From Sphingobacteriales bacterium (lineage in GTDB: Bacteria > Bacteroidota > Bacteroidia > Chitinophagales > Chitinophagaceae): a stretch of DNA of 58,584 nucleotides. The DNA lies in the NCBI GenBank assembly GCA_027491165.1, contig JAIXWS010000111.1, forward strand, positions 1 through 58,584, written 5' to 3'. Below are positions 1 to 35,202 of the stretch, in pieces. The position numbers and the translations under genes are program-made. Position 1 is the first letter of the stretch. Each line of letters opens with the position of its first letter. Under the pieces are notes generated by a model, which did not search any database, was not told where the DNA came from, and was given only the letters and a program-made list of their open reading frames with translations.

Positions 1-633
1 GTTGATATGAATTATGCTTCCAATGAGCCCAAAGGTGATGATTGCTTAGCTTACCCTAAAATTAATTTTAGCAAAAACAACGAAGGCGCTAAACTATTTG
101 CACTCTTCCAAAGCCATAACGAGGTGGATATTTGGGACTATGCAGGTGGTATGCCTTTTTTGGCTAAATATGCTGAATATGCAACCTTTCCTGGTCCAGC
201 CGTTTCTACTCCAGCAATTTATGTGCCATCCACTCTTAATTATGGAAACGTTGTAGATCCAATATACCCTGATATAAGTATTTTCCTCTCTCAAAAAATG
301 GTAGATTGGTATCCCTTTTCGCTACCTGGTCCTTTGTTTAAAAAAGCGGGCGATAATGTTATTAACGAAGAAATAAAAGCATTAAGTATATCGCCAAACC
401 CCTTTAGCGATAAAGAGCTATTTCTCATCAACGCTGGCGATGCCACAGAACGCTACACCGTTCGCTTTAGCAGTGCCGAAGGCAAAATGCTGCTGACCAA
501 AGAGGGTACAGTTGCCGAGCTTAATGCTGCACTGCGTCTGCTACAAGGGCAAAACTTAGCAGCAGGAATGTACTTTGTAAACATAGCCAAAGGCAAAGTA
601 GATTTGCAACAATTTAAAATTGTGAAACACTAA
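1..633 (+). CDS. T9SS-secreted protein, C-terminal part (5' end outside window)
   Basis: The reading frame is open from base 1, so the true start lies upstream; an ATG at 7 is probably internal. About 120 residues of unrecognised sequence come first. The last 80 or so residues form a type A T9SS sorting domain: an SPNPF motif, alternating strands, then the typical GMYFVNI near the end and a basic C-terminal tail. Proteins with this domain cross the outer membrane through the type IX translocon and are released or anchored after the domain is cut off. The role of the passenger cannot be told from this fragment. The gene ends just before a strong palindrome that may stop transcription. Confidence 0.75.
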   Translation, partial: VDMNYASNEPKGDDCLAYPKINFSKNNEGAKLFALFQSHNEVDIWDYAGGMPFLAKYAEYATFPGPAVSTPAIYVPSTLNYGNVVDPIYPDISIFLSQKMVDWYPFSLPGPLFKKAGDNVINEEIKALSISPNPFSDKELFLINAGDATERYTVRFSSAEGKMLLTKEGTVAELNAALRLLQGQNLAAGMYFVNIAKGKVDLQQFKIVKH

Positions 634-30200: not shown

Positions 30201-30245
30201 AACCATTAAGACTTTTGTTGAGGTATTTAATTTTTCAAGAATAAT

Positions 30246-30273
30246 TTTGAAATTACTTTTTGCAGTAAATTTG
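30246..30273 (+). promoter_or_regulatory. Promoter of the phosphorelay operon
   Basis: TTTG (30246-30249) and TAAATTTG (30266-30273) are separated by 16 bases, close to the Bacteroidota consensus. The ATG of the response regulator follows after 32 bases. Confidence 0.55.
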
Positions 30274-30305
30274 AATTGCTCTAATTTTTAGAAATCTTCC
30301 TTATT

Positions 30306-31655
30306 ATGAATAAATTTAAAATTTTTATTGTAGAAGATGACCTTTGGTATTTACAGGTATTAGAGTACTATTTGTCAAAAGACTTTGATTATGATATAGT
30401 TAGATTTTCTTCGGGGAAGGAATGTTTAGATAATTTGCATCAAAGGCCCCATCTCATTACGCTAGACTATAATCTGCCAGATACCGATGGAATGCAGATA
30501 CTCAAAAAAATAAAATCGGTAAACGCTGAGATCCCCATAATTTTTATAAGTAGTCAAGATGATCCCGTGTTGATTAAATCGGTATTGGACGAAGGGGCAA
30601 CTGACTTTTTTGTGAAAGATGAAAATACACGTGAACTTCTGTTGCATTCTATTAATCGAATAAAAGATAATCATGATTTAAAAGAGGAATTAGAGCAGCT
30701 AAAAGTTGAATTGGGACAAAAGTATGAGATTCAAAAAATAGCCCTTGGCGAAAGCAACTCAATCAAAAAGATATATGCTCTTATAGAGAAAGCATCCAAA
30801 TCAAATATCAATGTTGCTTTATCTGGTGAATCAGGTACTGGAAAAAGATTATTTGCACGAGCGATACACTTTAATTCAGTTCGTTCGAACAAACCATTTA
30901 TCTCTGTGGACATTAGTGCAATACCCAAAGATTTGGTAGATATGGAGTTGTTTGGGCAAGAAACAACTAATGTTTCTGGGTATGTATCGTCCAAAATGGG
31001 TAAAATTGAACAGGCCAATGGAGGAACTTTGTTTCTACAAAACATTTCAGACTTAGAGATGAATACCCAAGCCAAGTTGTTGTACTTCCTTGAAGAAAAG
31101 TATTTTTATAAAGTTGGTGGAGAAAAATTGATAACCAGCGATGTTCGCTTTATTTGTTCTAGTAGTAAAGATTTGATTGAAGAGGTCCGAGCAAAAAACC
31201 TAAGAGAAGATTTGTTTTATGCTTTGATGCGTATGCCCATCACCCTTCCTCCCTTAAGAGAAAGAGGTAGTGATATCATAATCCTAGCCAAACATATTTT
31301 GAATCAATATTGTATAGAAAATAACTTAGAGCCGAAAGTGCTTTCTAGTGCTGCATGTGAGAAATTATTAGCTTATCCTTTTCCCGGTAATATTCATGAA
31401 TTAAAATCGATTATTCAGTTTGCATTGGTAATGAGTAACGCTGAACAGATTGAAGTTTCTGATTTGATGTTTACCAAAATAATTAATGAGATTAATTTGT
31501 TTCCTGAAGAAAAAACTATGAGAGAATATACCATCAGTATAGTTCAATCTTTTTTAAGAAGGTACGATGGTAATGTCTTAAAGGTGGCTGAAAAACTGGA
31601 TATTGGTAAGTCTACTATTTATAAAATGATTCAAGAAAAGGAAATTGTACCCTAA
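30306..31655 (+). CDS. NtrC-like response regulator with degenerate AAA+ domain
   Basis: 449 residues. Domains in order: receiver (1-120, phospho-acceptor Asp54 in ITLDYNLPD), AAA+ (about 150-380) and a Fis-type helix-turn-helix at the C-terminus (VLKVAEKLDIGKSTIYKMIQ). The Walker A motif GESGTGKR is kept (174-181). The sigma-54 contact loop GAFTGA reads TNVSGY (221-226), and the Walker B acids are replaced: GTLFLQN instead of GTLFLDE (Gln245, Asn246). The FRxDLYYRL arginine segment is LREDLFYAL. ATP hydrolysis and sigma-54 activation are therefore unlikely; it may act as a phosphorylation-controlled DNA-binding regulator. First gene of a phosphorelay locus. Confidence 0.9.
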   Translation: MNKFKIFIVEDDLWYLQVLEYYLSKDFDYDIVRFSSGKECLDNLHQRPHLITLDYNLPDTDGMQILKKIKSVNAEIPIIFISSQDDPVLIKSVLDEGATDFFVKDENTRELLLHSINRIKDNHDLKEELEQLKVELGQKYEIQKIALGESNSIKKIYALIEKASKSNINVALSGESGTGKRLFARAIHFNSVRSNKPFISVDISAIPKDLVDMELFGQETTNVSGYVSSKMGKIEQANGGTLFLQNISDLEMNTQAKLLYFLEEKYFYKVGGEKLITSDVRFICSSSKDLIEEVRAKNLREDLFYALMRMPITLPPLRERGSDIIILAKHILNQYCIENNLEPKVLSSAACEKLLAYPFPGNIHELKSIIQFALVMSNAEQIEVSDLMFTKIINEINLFPEEKTMREYTISIVQSFLRRYDGNVLKVAEKLDIGKSTIYKMIQEKEIVP

Positions 31656-31717
31656 ACGGATTGGGGTAAATTTTCCAATTAATTTCAATAACGAATCTCT
31701 TTTCATCTTAATTTCCA

Positions 31718-34700
31718 ATGGATCAGGAGACAATTTTGCTGCATACAGCAACACTTAAAAAGTTTTTGCCCGATCATGTATTGATTAATGAAGGGCATGA
31801 GATCCTTTCCGCTGGAGCGGAAATCAGCCTTTTTTTAAAACAGGATACGCATCAAAATTTATTTGAGCTCATTTCTTTTCAAGATGCAATGGGTAATCCT
31901 GTCGAATGGAGTCAGCTAGATCAACTTCCTGGACAATCTATTAACGTAGTGTTCAAAAGGGATTTATCCTGCAGAACCTACATCATTGATTTGGTTAAGG
32001 AGCATAATGCATGGTTATTGAATTTTGTTCCAAAAAAGGGGGCCATTCAACAACATCAATGTAGCGAAAATGCAGCAGAAGATGATAGAGTATCCCATCA
32101 AACCAATAAGGAATTACAATCTCAACTAGAAATCACAAATTCAAGATTTGAAAAAATAATCGATGATCCAATAGTAGGTTTATTGGTAGAAGATGAGGAT
32201 CGGCGGATTGTAAATGCAAATGATACCTTTTGTCGTTTGTTTCTTATCCCTTCACCTGCAGCATCTTTAATTGGCATGTGCTGCATGGCATCTGCCCAGC
32301 AAAGTAAATCAATGTTTACAGATCCTGAGCAATTTGTTGATCGGGTAAATGAGCTTTTAATGGGCCGTGTTACCGTATTGAATGATGTCTTGGAATTAGC
32401 TGATGGGCGTTTTTTTAGACGAGACTATATCCCCATTTTTATTGATAACAACTATCGTGGCCATATGTGGAAATATATGGACATTACAGAAAGTAAAACA
32501 TTAGAAAACAAGCTCAAGGAGCAAAAAGAGTTTTATGAAAAAATACTCAATAATCTCCCTGCAGATATTGCAGTATTCGATAAAGATCATCATTATGTCT
32601 TTGTCAATTTAAAGGCCATAGGTGATGATGAATTGCGTCATTGGATTATCGGCAAAACAGATTATGATTATTGCACCCGTAAAAATAAAGATATCTCTAT
32701 AGCTGACAGTCGAAGAGCATTGTTTGTAGATACTGCAAAAGCCAAAAAACAACTTGTATGGGAAGAGTGCCTTATAGACAAGCAAGGTAATGACCAATAT
32801 TCCATGCGTATTTTTTATCCACTGTACCATGCTAATGGTGATTTTGATATCATGATTGGATATGGTTTGGATATTACCGAAAGAAAGAAAATTGAAATGC
32901 GCATTGCCCAAAGCGAAATGAGGTTTAGGGGATTGTTTGAAAAGAGTCCTGCATTGATATCCATTCAGGATATAGGGGGTAGCTTGATAGATGTTAATCA
33001 AACTACATTAGATGTATTAGGGTATGATAAAAAGGACCTAGTTGGCAAAACCACTCATGACTTTTTGGGTACAGATTTAGGCATGTTTGCTAATATCCCT
33101 GGCCAAGAGGTATTTCAGCCAGAAGCCAATGAGGATGGTATTGTCAAAGTCAAAACCAAATACGGTAAAGATGTTCATTTATTGTACAGAAATCACCGAG
33201 TAAATATTAATGATCATGAGTCAATTATTCTTGGTTTTGCTCAAGATATTACAGCGAATATCAATGCTGAATTAGAATTAAAAAAGAGCGAAGAAAAGTA
33301 TAAAGATATCATTGAGCATATGAACCTTGGTCTATTGGAAGTGGATGAACAAGGTAAAATAATCTATGCCAATTCTTGTTTTTGCAGCATGATTGCCATG
33401 ACCAATGAAGAACTCATTGGCCAAACTATTGCACACATTTATCAGGATTTAAACCCCGATTTTAATATTCCCGAAATTCTGGCAAAAAGAAACGCTGGGA
33501 TTACAGAATCGTATGAAATAAACTTAAAGGATAAACAAGGCAATCCGAAATGGATGTTAATTAGCGGTGCTCCTGTTAGAGATGGCAATGGAAAAATCAA
33601 AGGCTCTATAGGGATATACTTAGAAATTACGGAACAAAAATTTTTGGAGGCCGACCTTCGTAAAGCAAAATTTGATGCTGAACAATCTGGTATTGCCAAG
33701 GAAATGTTTTTGGCTAATATTAGTCATGAAATTAGAACCCCTCTTAACGCAATCATAGGTATTAGCGGTCTGTTGTCGAAAACCAAAATGGATGAGCAAC
33801 AAAGCCTTTTTCTAACAACAATACAGACAGCTGCGCAAAATTTACTTGTTATCATCAACGATTTACTAGATTTTTCTAAAATCGAATCTGGCAATCTTAG
33901 CATTGAAAATATATCCTTCGACCTAAAGGAAGTATTGCTCAATACCAAACAAATTCTTGTTTATAAGGCCGAAGAAAAAGGATTAGCAATTGATTTTAAA
34001 TTTGATGCTGCAATTGCCCCCGTTTTAATTGGAGACCCATTTCGTATTAATCAGGTTATTTTAAACATCTTGGGAAATGCCATCAAATTTACTGAAAAAG
34101 GCTTGGTGACTATTGACTGCCGATTGCTAAAAGAGGATAACGATATGCAGCAAATTTGCATCGAAATTAAAGATACAGGCATCGGTATATCAGAAGAATT
34201 TGTTGTCAATTTGTTTGACAAATTTGCCCAAGAGGATGAAACCATCACCCGGAAATATGGCGGTACTGGGCTTGGTATGAGTATTTCTAAAGATTTGGTA
34301 GAACGGATGGGCGGATCTTTAACCGTAAAAAGTCAAAAAAACATAGGTACAAGTTTTGGCATCATTTTCAATTTGCCCATAGGAGAGTTGTCCGTACCAG
34401 ATAGTACAGCTGATTTGCCCATTAGTTCTAATGCACTCATAGGCAAGCGCATTCTACTTGCCGAAGACAATGAAATGAATCGACTTTTGGCGAGTACATT
34501 GCTAGCCCATTACGGTCTTTTGGTTGATGAAGCAGAAGACGGGAAAGTAGCTATTGAAATGATTCAATCTCATCCATACGATCTTGTACTAATGGATCTT
34601 CAAATGCCTGAAATGGATGGCCTAATAGCTACTAAAATTATTCGTGAACAATTCGTATTAAGCTTACCCATTATTGCCCTTACAGCAAATGCATGTAAAG

Positions 34701-34816
34701 AAGAGGAAGCTAGATGTTATGCTGCCGGTATGGATGATTTTGTTTCAAAGCCATTCGAAGAACATGAATTTATACGAAAGGTTGCTAAATGGATTTTTAA
34801 AACCCACAACGCTTAA
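31718..34816 (+). CDS. Hybrid histidine kinase with four PAS domains
   Basis: 1032 residues with no membrane helix or signal peptide, so a cytosolic sensor. In order: an unassigned N-terminal domain (1-110), a short coiled coil, four PAS domains (about 145-265, 270-395, 400-520, 525-645), a HisKA dimerisation domain with His670 in NISHEIRTPLN, an ATPase domain (NAIKFTEKG, DTGIGIS, GGTGLGMS), and a C-terminal receiver with Asp960 in LVLMDLQMPEMDG. It probably autophosphorylates and passes the phosphate to its own receiver. It lies 62 bases after the response regulator and 5 before the HPt gene. Confidence 0.95.
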   Translation: MDQETILLHTATLKKFLPDHVLINEGHEILSAGAEISLFLKQDTHQNLFELISFQDAMGNPVEWSQLDQLPGQSINVVFKRDLSCRTYIIDLVKEHNAWLLNFVPKKGAIQQHQCSENAAEDDRVSHQTNKELQSQLEITNSRFEKIIDDPIVGLLVEDEDRRIVNANDTFCRLFLIPSPAASLIGMCCMASAQQSKSMFTDPEQFVDRVNELLMGRVTVLNDVLELADGRFFRRDYIPIFIDNNYRGHMWKYMDITESKTLENKLKEQKEFYEKILNNLPADIAVFDKDHHYVFVNLKAIGDDELRHWIIGKTDYDYCTRKNKDISIADSRRALFVDTAKAKKQLVWEECLIDKQGNDQYSMRIFYPLYHANGDFDIMIGYGLDITERKKIEMRIAQSEMRFRGLFEKSPALISIQDIGGSLIDVNQTTLDVLGYDKKDLVGKTTHDFLGTDLGMFANIPGQEVFQPEANEDGIVKVKTKYGKDVHLLYRNHRVNINDHESIILGFAQDITANINAELELKKSEEKYKDIIEHMNLGLLEVDEQGKIIYANSCFCSMIAMTNEELIGQTIAHIYQDLNPDFNIPEILAKRNAGITESYEINLKDKQGNPKWMLISGAPVRDGNGKIKGSIGIYLEITEQKFLEADLRKAKFDAEQSGIAKEMFLANISHEIRTPLNAIIGISGLLSKTKMDEQQSLFLTTIQTAAQNLLVIINDLLDFSKIESGNLSIENISFDLKEVLLNTKQILVYKAEEKGLAIDFKFDAAIAPVLIGDPFRINQVILNILGNAIKFTEKGLVTIDCRLLKEDNDMQQICIEIKDTGIGISEEFVVNLFDKFAQEDETITRKYGGTGLGMSISKDLVERMGGSLTVKSQKNIGTSFGIIFNLPIGELSVPDSTADLPISSNALIGKRILLAEDNEMNRLLASTLLAHYGLLVDEAEDGKVAIEMIQSHPYDLVLMDLQMPEMDGLIATKIIREQFVLSLPIIALTANACKEEEARCYAAGMDDFVSKPFEEHEFIRKVAKWIFKTHNA

Positions 34817-34821
34817 GCAAG

Positions 34822-35202
34822 ATGCAAGAAAAGATTTTGTTGTTTAATATCGATGCCTTGTTAAAGATGGGAAGGAATGATATGCTTTTTGTACAGAAAA
34901 TGCTCCTTCTGTTTACCCAAATGATGCCTAAATCTTTAGATGAAATGCATCAGGCCATTCTGGAAAAAGAGTGGTTACGATTAGCTTCTTTAGGACATAA
35001 GATTAAATCTTCTGTATCAAGTATGGGTATTGCAGCTATTGCGGATGATTTTAAGAGGTTAGAATTTTTGTGTAAGGCAGCAGAGATAGAGGAACAAGAA
35101 ATAGTTCTGACTTTTAATAGCATTAAAACAATAATTGAACAGGCTATGGAACAAATGAAGCATCAATATCCCCAATTTTTTCTTACAGACACTCTGACCT
35201 AA
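34822..35202 (+). CDS. Histidine phosphotransfer (HPt) protein
   Basis: 126 residues, all helical. The phospho-accepting histidine is His59 in LGHKIKSSVSSMGI, the standard HPt motif. Its place 5 bases after a hybrid kinase and in the same operon as a response regulator indicates the relay kinase receiver - HPt - regulator receiver. No signal peptide; cytosolic. Confidence 0.9.
   Translation: MQEKILLFNIDALLKMGRNDMLFVQKMLLLFTQMMPKSLDEMHQAILEKEWLRLASLGHKIKSSVSSMGIAAIADDFKRLEFLCKAAEIEEQEIVLTFNSIKTIIEQAMEQMKHQYPQFFLTDTLT

Follow-up and report, generated by a model that had tools for sequence, protein, structure and literature searches.

Can a response regulator with the build of a sigma-54 activator still serve its phosphorelay when its AAA+ domain has lost the sigma-54 loop as well as the ATPase residues? 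This question is raised by a locus in a 58,584-nucleotide stretch of DNA (contig JAIXWS010000111.1 of assembly GCA_027491165.1, Sphingobacteriales bacterium, family Chitinophagaceae; the whole stretch is called the window below), in which three adjoining open reading frames (ORFs) on the plus strand encode a regulator, a hybrid histidine kinase and a histidine phosphotransfer protein (HPt). By Pfam, the regulator comprises a receiver, a Sigma54_activat domain and an AAA lid, the kinase PAS repeats (four stretches of PAS_4), HisKA, HATPase_c and a receiver, and the third ORF an Hpt domain. The C-terminal helix-turn-helix (HTH) of the regulator was assigned via the alignment of its orthologue group, the Pfam score for HTH_17 being under its cut-off. 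A preliminary description of this DNA had named the three genes and had pointed to Asp54, Walker A, TNVSGY, QN and an alanine in the REDLYYR segment of the regulator, as well as to His670 and Asp960 of the kinase and His59 of the HPt; ORFs, Pfam domains and alignments bear out all of these assignments. The features are as follows.

30306..31655, plus strand: NtrC-type response regulator (receiver, AAA+, Fis-type HTH) of 449 residues, without the AAA+ catalytic and sigma-54 motifs (ORF, Pfam, alignment)
30306..30647, plus strand: receiver domain, residues 1-114, with D11, D12, D54, S82 and K104 kept (PF00072, 1.1e-20; alignment)
30744..31256, plus strand: AAA+ domain spanning residues 147-317, with a terminal branch of 1.39 versus 0.63 for the next-longest (Pfam, tree)
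30966..30983, plus strand: TNVSGY at residues 221-226, in place of the GAFTGA loop (173-member alignment)
31038..31043, plus strand: QN at residues 245-246, in place of the acid pair DE of Walker B (173-member alignment)
31221..31223, plus strand: second arginine of RxDxxxR, now Ala306 (173-member alignment)
31395..31397, plus strand: sensor II arginine, now His364 (173-member alignment)
31521..31652, plus strand: C-terminal HTH, residues 406-449, of normal evolutionary rate (identity and branch length)
31718..34816, plus strand: hybrid histidine kinase of 1032 residues with PAS repeats, HisKA (His670), HATPase_c and receiver (Asp960) (Pfam, alignment)
34822..35202, plus strand: free-standing HPt of 126 residues with His59 (Pfam, alignment)

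Residues lost and kept in the AAA+ domain

In the lineage of the window, the AAA+ domain has lost the sigma-54 loop together with the residues for ATP hydrolysis and for sensing between subunits. The full architecture of a bacterial enhancer-binding protein (bEBP) is present, with receiver, Sigma54_activat AAA+ domain and C-terminal HTH, yet GAFTGA, the DE pair of Walker B and RxDxxxR are all defective. Walker A is intact (GESGTGK, with K180 as its lysine), and in RxDxxxR the residues R300 and D302 are kept while the second arginine is replaced (R306A). The loss of sigma-54 and ATPase motifs claimed in the preliminary description is real, and more residues are gone than it had listed, namely the asparagine of the glutamate switch (N202D), the residue after Walker A (E181R), the position of PspF R122 (R260Y), sensor I, where THKN became SSKD, and the sensor II arginine (R364H). 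A defective GAFTGA within a recognisable bEBP marks sigma-54-independent NtrC-like regulators of the TyrR/HupR/VpsR type, and the window regulator carries this mark.

Window positions were converted to the PspF numbering of PMC3419264 with a constant offset of 138, a mapping made in this analysis. By this offset, K180 corresponds to PspF K42, Walker B to D107/E108 and RxDxxxR to R162/D164/R168, and N202, E181 and R260 are equivalent to N64, E43 and R122, respectively. The available excerpts of the same paper, which define RxDxxxR as a trans motif, report that the single exchanges E43A, N64Q, D107A, E108A, R122A and R168A in PspF lowered the Vmax of the ATPase from 39.5 to 1.5-0.15 per min (PMC3419264). 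Of these exchanges, R168A alone is identical to the substitution in the window, the letters at the other positions being different. The best matches among solved structures were the NtrC-family bEBPs 4l4u and 1ny5 and LuxO (5ep0), which share the receiver-AAA+-HTH layout; in contrast to them, the window regulator lacks GAFTGA, the Walker B acids, the second arginine of RxDxxxR and the sensor II arginine. A structure prediction from two rows gave a mean predicted local distance difference test score (pLDDT) of 51.7 and the model was not used.

Orthologue group and pattern of divergence

Orthologues were collected from 394 genomes of the family, 396 of the order and 395 of the phylum, which had been drawn evenly from larger groups and overlap; four candidates per genome were scored, and the E cut-off was 1e-100 for the family, 1e-130 for the order and 1e-110 for the phylum. 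All matches listed at these cut-offs were taken and, together with L059 from a separate contig search, amounted to 174 loci and, as one gene had been fetched twice, 173 distinct proteins. Matches at E <= 1e-100 occurred in 129 of the 394 family genomes, the window genome included, and the regulator also has matches in further families, both within the order and within the phylum. Since distant bEBP paralogues begin near 1e-70, the group is well separated, and since 13 of the 129 family genomes gave two matches, it contains some paralogues. The identity of the window regulator to the 173 distinct members ranges from 38 to 52%.

All 173 members have DE in Walker B, where the window copy has QN, and R306, N202, R260 and the Walker A lysine are each kept throughout the group as well. 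R364 is kept in 172 members, the truncated copy L107 having a gap there. The loop reads GAFTGA, GSFTGA, GAFTGS, GSFTGS or GAYTGA in 172 of the 173 and GAFTDA in L202. Among the proteins read, the window copy alone is without DE, the loop, R306, N202, R260, R364 and E181. A search for the same QN substitution beside a kinase and an HPt elsewhere, as proposed in the preliminary description, found none among the 173 members; nor did the change occur among the matches listed from the family, order and phylum draws, in six genomes of the genus, the window genome among them, or in the contig search, whose single group member, L059, has GAYTGA and DE. Because the draws overlap and the family exceeds the sample, further degenerate copies may exist.

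Two members of the group deviate in other ways. L202 (G312:C91) is the only other one with a damaged loop and keeps DE, R306 and R364, and the second copy in G312, L198, shows no deviation. L107 (G256:C1:376151-377143) has a shortened frame of 343 residues, and its match stops before the end of the lid and the HTH.

In a leave-one-out comparison with 94 other members, the window regulator departs at 23 of the 88 columns conserved to at least 97%, compared with 6 of 91 in the worst other member (L059) and a median of 0. When all 173 members were considered, not leaving one out, it departs at 26 of 93 conserved columns and the worst other member at 5. Terminal branches, measured per domain on a fixed tree of 94 rows, amounted for the window regulator to 1.39 in the AAA+ domain (next-longest 0.63), 0.77 in the receiver (longest other 0.79), 0.91 in the lid (1.06) and 0.48 in the HTH (longest others 1.15, 0.92 and 0.89). 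Similarly, mean identities to the 94 members were 0.479 for the AAA+ domain versus 0.722 among the others, 0.465 versus 0.530 for the lid and 0.549 versus 0.539 for the HTH. An estimated 416 or so replacements occurred on the window branch, over 408 of the 449 residues, with zero stops, whereas neutral decay, at the stop-to-missense ratio of 0.05-0.07 for the window gene, should have produced about 21-30. An AAA+ domain swapped in from another bEBP is unlikely, as the identity of the domain to its own group (0.479) is higher than the 33-37% that the regulator shares with the other bEBPs of its genome.

Phosphorelay partners and genome context

The preliminary description had spoken of a complete phosphorelay, and the relay residues His670, Asp960, His59 and Asp54 are indeed all present. 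The window kinase keeps 74 of the 75 columns that are invariant in 17 neighbouring kinases, His670 and Asp960 included, with mean identities of 0.645 for HisKA (others 0.649), 0.543 for HATPase (0.554) and 0.538 for the receiver (0.558). The position of HPt His59 is a histidine in all 15 loci giving a match (20 loci searched). A hybrid kinase lies in the fetched stretch at 17 of 20 inspected related loci (on the opposite strand in L073), and because of this shared neighbourhood we infer that phosphotransfer would occur among the window proteins. Instead of a hybrid kinase, L071 and L080 have a short receiver-HPt protein, which in L080 is several kb away, and neither was found in the inspected stretch of L079. 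The HPt is fused to the C-terminus of the kinase in 16 of the 17 hybrid-kinase loci and is free in L067; in the window it is a free ORF in a reading frame that differs from that of the kinase (junction 34816-34822). The His-Asp-His-Asp chain resembles the multistep phosphorelays of the ArcB/TorS type, and TorS and ArcB models match the kinase and the HPt, but the output in the window is an NtrC-like regulator and the HPt is a separate gene.

Whether the genome has rpoN at all, a point which the preliminary description had raised as a check, is answered by an ORF of 488 residues that matches Sigma54_CBD (2.7e-54) and reads through to the C-terminal end, its N-terminal and RpoN-box regions being recognised by eye only. 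Since rpoN is present, a missing sigma-54 is ruled out as the cause of the motif loss. Sites resembling -24/-12 promoters number 110 genome-wide, most of them not placed against genes, versus 30 for a reversed control pattern, an excess that suggests an active sigma-54 regulon. Two further proteins of this genome with strong PF00158 matches keep DE in Walker B; the loop is GAFTGA in one and GAFTSA in the other, and these are the two bEBPs with 33-37% identity to the window regulator. The GAFTSA protein (L001, G000:C130) has relatives in the genus (L040, L041 and L043) which share FTSA- or FSSA-type loops, and in L001 and these relatives LYHRL replaces LYYRL and Walker A reads GENGVGKE.

A second orthologue taking over the original role was not found in the window genome, and no orthologue was found in five other genomes of the genus, three of which are less than 90% complete. 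The upstream neighbour fmt occurs in all five and is adjoined by scpA in four; at L157 and L158, for which ORFs were listed, fmt is followed by genes that do not resemble the operon, and two other genomes have contigs that end near it. As fmt is kept and other genes come after it, the site of the operon is probably a variable one, with a gain here or a loss elsewhere.

Proposed mode of action and precedents

We think it fairly probable that the window protein is a phosphorylation-gated DNA-binding regulator, working without sigma-54 or ATP hydrolysis, that arose from a Bacteroidota sigma-54 activator with hybrid kinase and HPt. The losses are mainly in the motor, while the HTH and the residues of the phosphorelay are kept. 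Phosphate would travel from His670 via Asp960 and His59 to Asp54, the phosphorylation of which would alter the dimer or oligomer state and the DNA affinity. The regulator would then act via occupancy of its sites, blocking transcription or contacting RNA polymerase with the housekeeping sigma factor, and would neither open sigma-54 promoters nor hydrolyse ATP. Of the two roles envisaged in the preliminary description, a phosphorylation-gated scaffold or a repressor, the normal HTH favours DNA binding over the scaffold. As to the use of ATP binding only, which that description had also put forward, the Walker A lysine is kept but E181, N202, both acids of Walker B, R306 and the sensor II arginine are missing, so that such a use may or may not apply. 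We offer only tentatively the more far-reaching proposal that selection turned the AAA+ motor into a phosphorylation-gated, non-hydrolysing platform for dimers or oligomers, and that control passed in a single lineage from sigma-54 to the housekeeping sigma factor, with kinase, HPt and DNA recognition retained.

Several observations weigh against a gated DNA-binding regulator. The receiver has three changes that are unusual in the 173-member alignment (N26D, A90I and Y101F), and its mean identity (0.442; others 0.528) is below that of every other member tested. Departures at conserved columns are non-significantly enriched in the AAA+ domain (19 of 59 versus 4 of 29 in the rest; Fisher p = 0.076), and the AAA+/rest rate ratio of 1.84 is close to the 1.82 of L125, which is intact and on a short branch. 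As the window regulator forms a long branch, its exact position in the tree is unsure, and as the form was found in one genome only, a metagenome-assembled genome (MAG), conservation of the new residues is not demonstrable. Also, no target gene or binding site of the regulator was identified.

According to the preliminary description, orthologues with intact motifs in close relatives would reveal a sequencing error or recent decay of this copy. Relatives with intact motifs are indeed numerous among the 173 read; however, the long frame-preserving divergence of the AAA+ domain next to a normal HTH and a normal kinase makes error or recent decay appear unlikely. Sequencing or assembly error, which the single MAG might suggest, would have to account for 26 separate departures from conserved columns, all of them frame-preserving, within an intact frame of 449 codons, and we give it practically no credence. 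A regulator gene in decay, with its sigma-54 target lost, selection relaxed and the protein disappearing, would account for the occurrence of this form in the window genome only, for the five other genomes of the genus without an orthologue and for a receiver identity that is the lowest of the group, but it is improbable with a frame intact after so many replacements, an HTH of normal rate, and kinase and HPt intact alongside.

Alternatively, the regulator could have kept ATP binding and the assembly of rings or partial rings, serving as a scaffold gated by ATP or joining another bEBP as a dominant-negative subunit. The Walker A with K180 and the residues R300 and D302 are kept, and the accessible parts of PMC4132715 describe that PspF E108Q, a hydrolysis-dead bEBP, still binds ATP, even more tightly, and is constitutively hexameric, which speaks for a scaffold that binds ATP. 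However, the sensor II arginine, the glutamate-switch asparagine, E181 and R306 are lost too, and mixed rings are unlikely because the other two bEBPs of the genome are so distant, so that we regard this alternative as unlikely. That the regulator is still a sigma-54 activator, only with highly unusual motifs, would agree with the presence of rpoN and the excess of -24/-12-like sites, yet it would have to do without GAFTGA, the two Walker B acids and R306, and we give this explanation very little weight.

Regulators without GAFTGA are already known, and the combined loss of the loop and the ATPase set is the new element here. NtrC of Rhodobacter capsulatus and of Caulobacter lack GAFTGA and are described, in the excerpts available, as active at sigma-70 promoters, ATP binding being required in the former and Walker A and B residues in the latter (PMC10274813). 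In these two proteins the loop is deleted, whereas in the window its length is kept, its residues are changed and Walker B is lost; since Walker A and B remain necessary in Caulobacter NtrC, the window regulator goes further. VpsR from Vibrio cholerae, also without GAFTGA, acts at sigma-70 promoters and reportedly does not need ATP, according to the same excerpts (PMC10274813). Similarly, the parts of PMC3162934 at hand list TyrR, HupR, DhaR and YplP as GAFTGA-defective homologues, term TyrR, DhaR and HupR sigma-70 dependent and state that about 110 recovered bEBP homologues deviate in the GAFTGA loop. The likeness of TyrR, HupR, DhaR, YplP and VpsR to the window regulator is the loop defect, and Walker B may be lost there too. 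Neither TyrR nor DhaR is known to be a response regulator. No natural bEBP without both GAFTGA and Walker B was seen described in the literature searched, which consisted chiefly of papers outside subscription, available in part. With the sigma-54 loop and the ATPase set lost jointly in one of 174 distinct proteins, at a normal HTH rate and with a conserved kinase, the locus is a natural experiment, and its intact sister proteins allow asking how an enhancer-binding ATPase comes to regulate independently of ATP and which residues of the AAA+ domain serve signalling and which catalysis.

VpsR uses cyclic di-GMP (c-di-GMP). When the c-di-GMP positions of VfmH given in the available text of PMC10714721 were transferred by an approximate offset, window residues 185, 269 and 334 were Arg, Lys and Gln, respectively, so that, by this offset only, two of the three VfmH arginines seem absent. 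By this rough comparison, a c-di-GMP site like that of VpsR, FleQ and VfmH is unsupported in the window regulator.

Upstream of the window regulator, a crude pattern scan found no sigma-54 promoter, and it found one in 19 related loci, a result of little weight; a scan for sigma-70-type promoters was no better than chance (21 versus 22.1). The gap at 30201-30305 before the regulator contains TAAATTTG, which resembles TAnnTTTG, the consensus of the Bacteroidota -7 element. An exact -24/-12 match is present at window positions 213-228, where it lies antisense and within an ORF.

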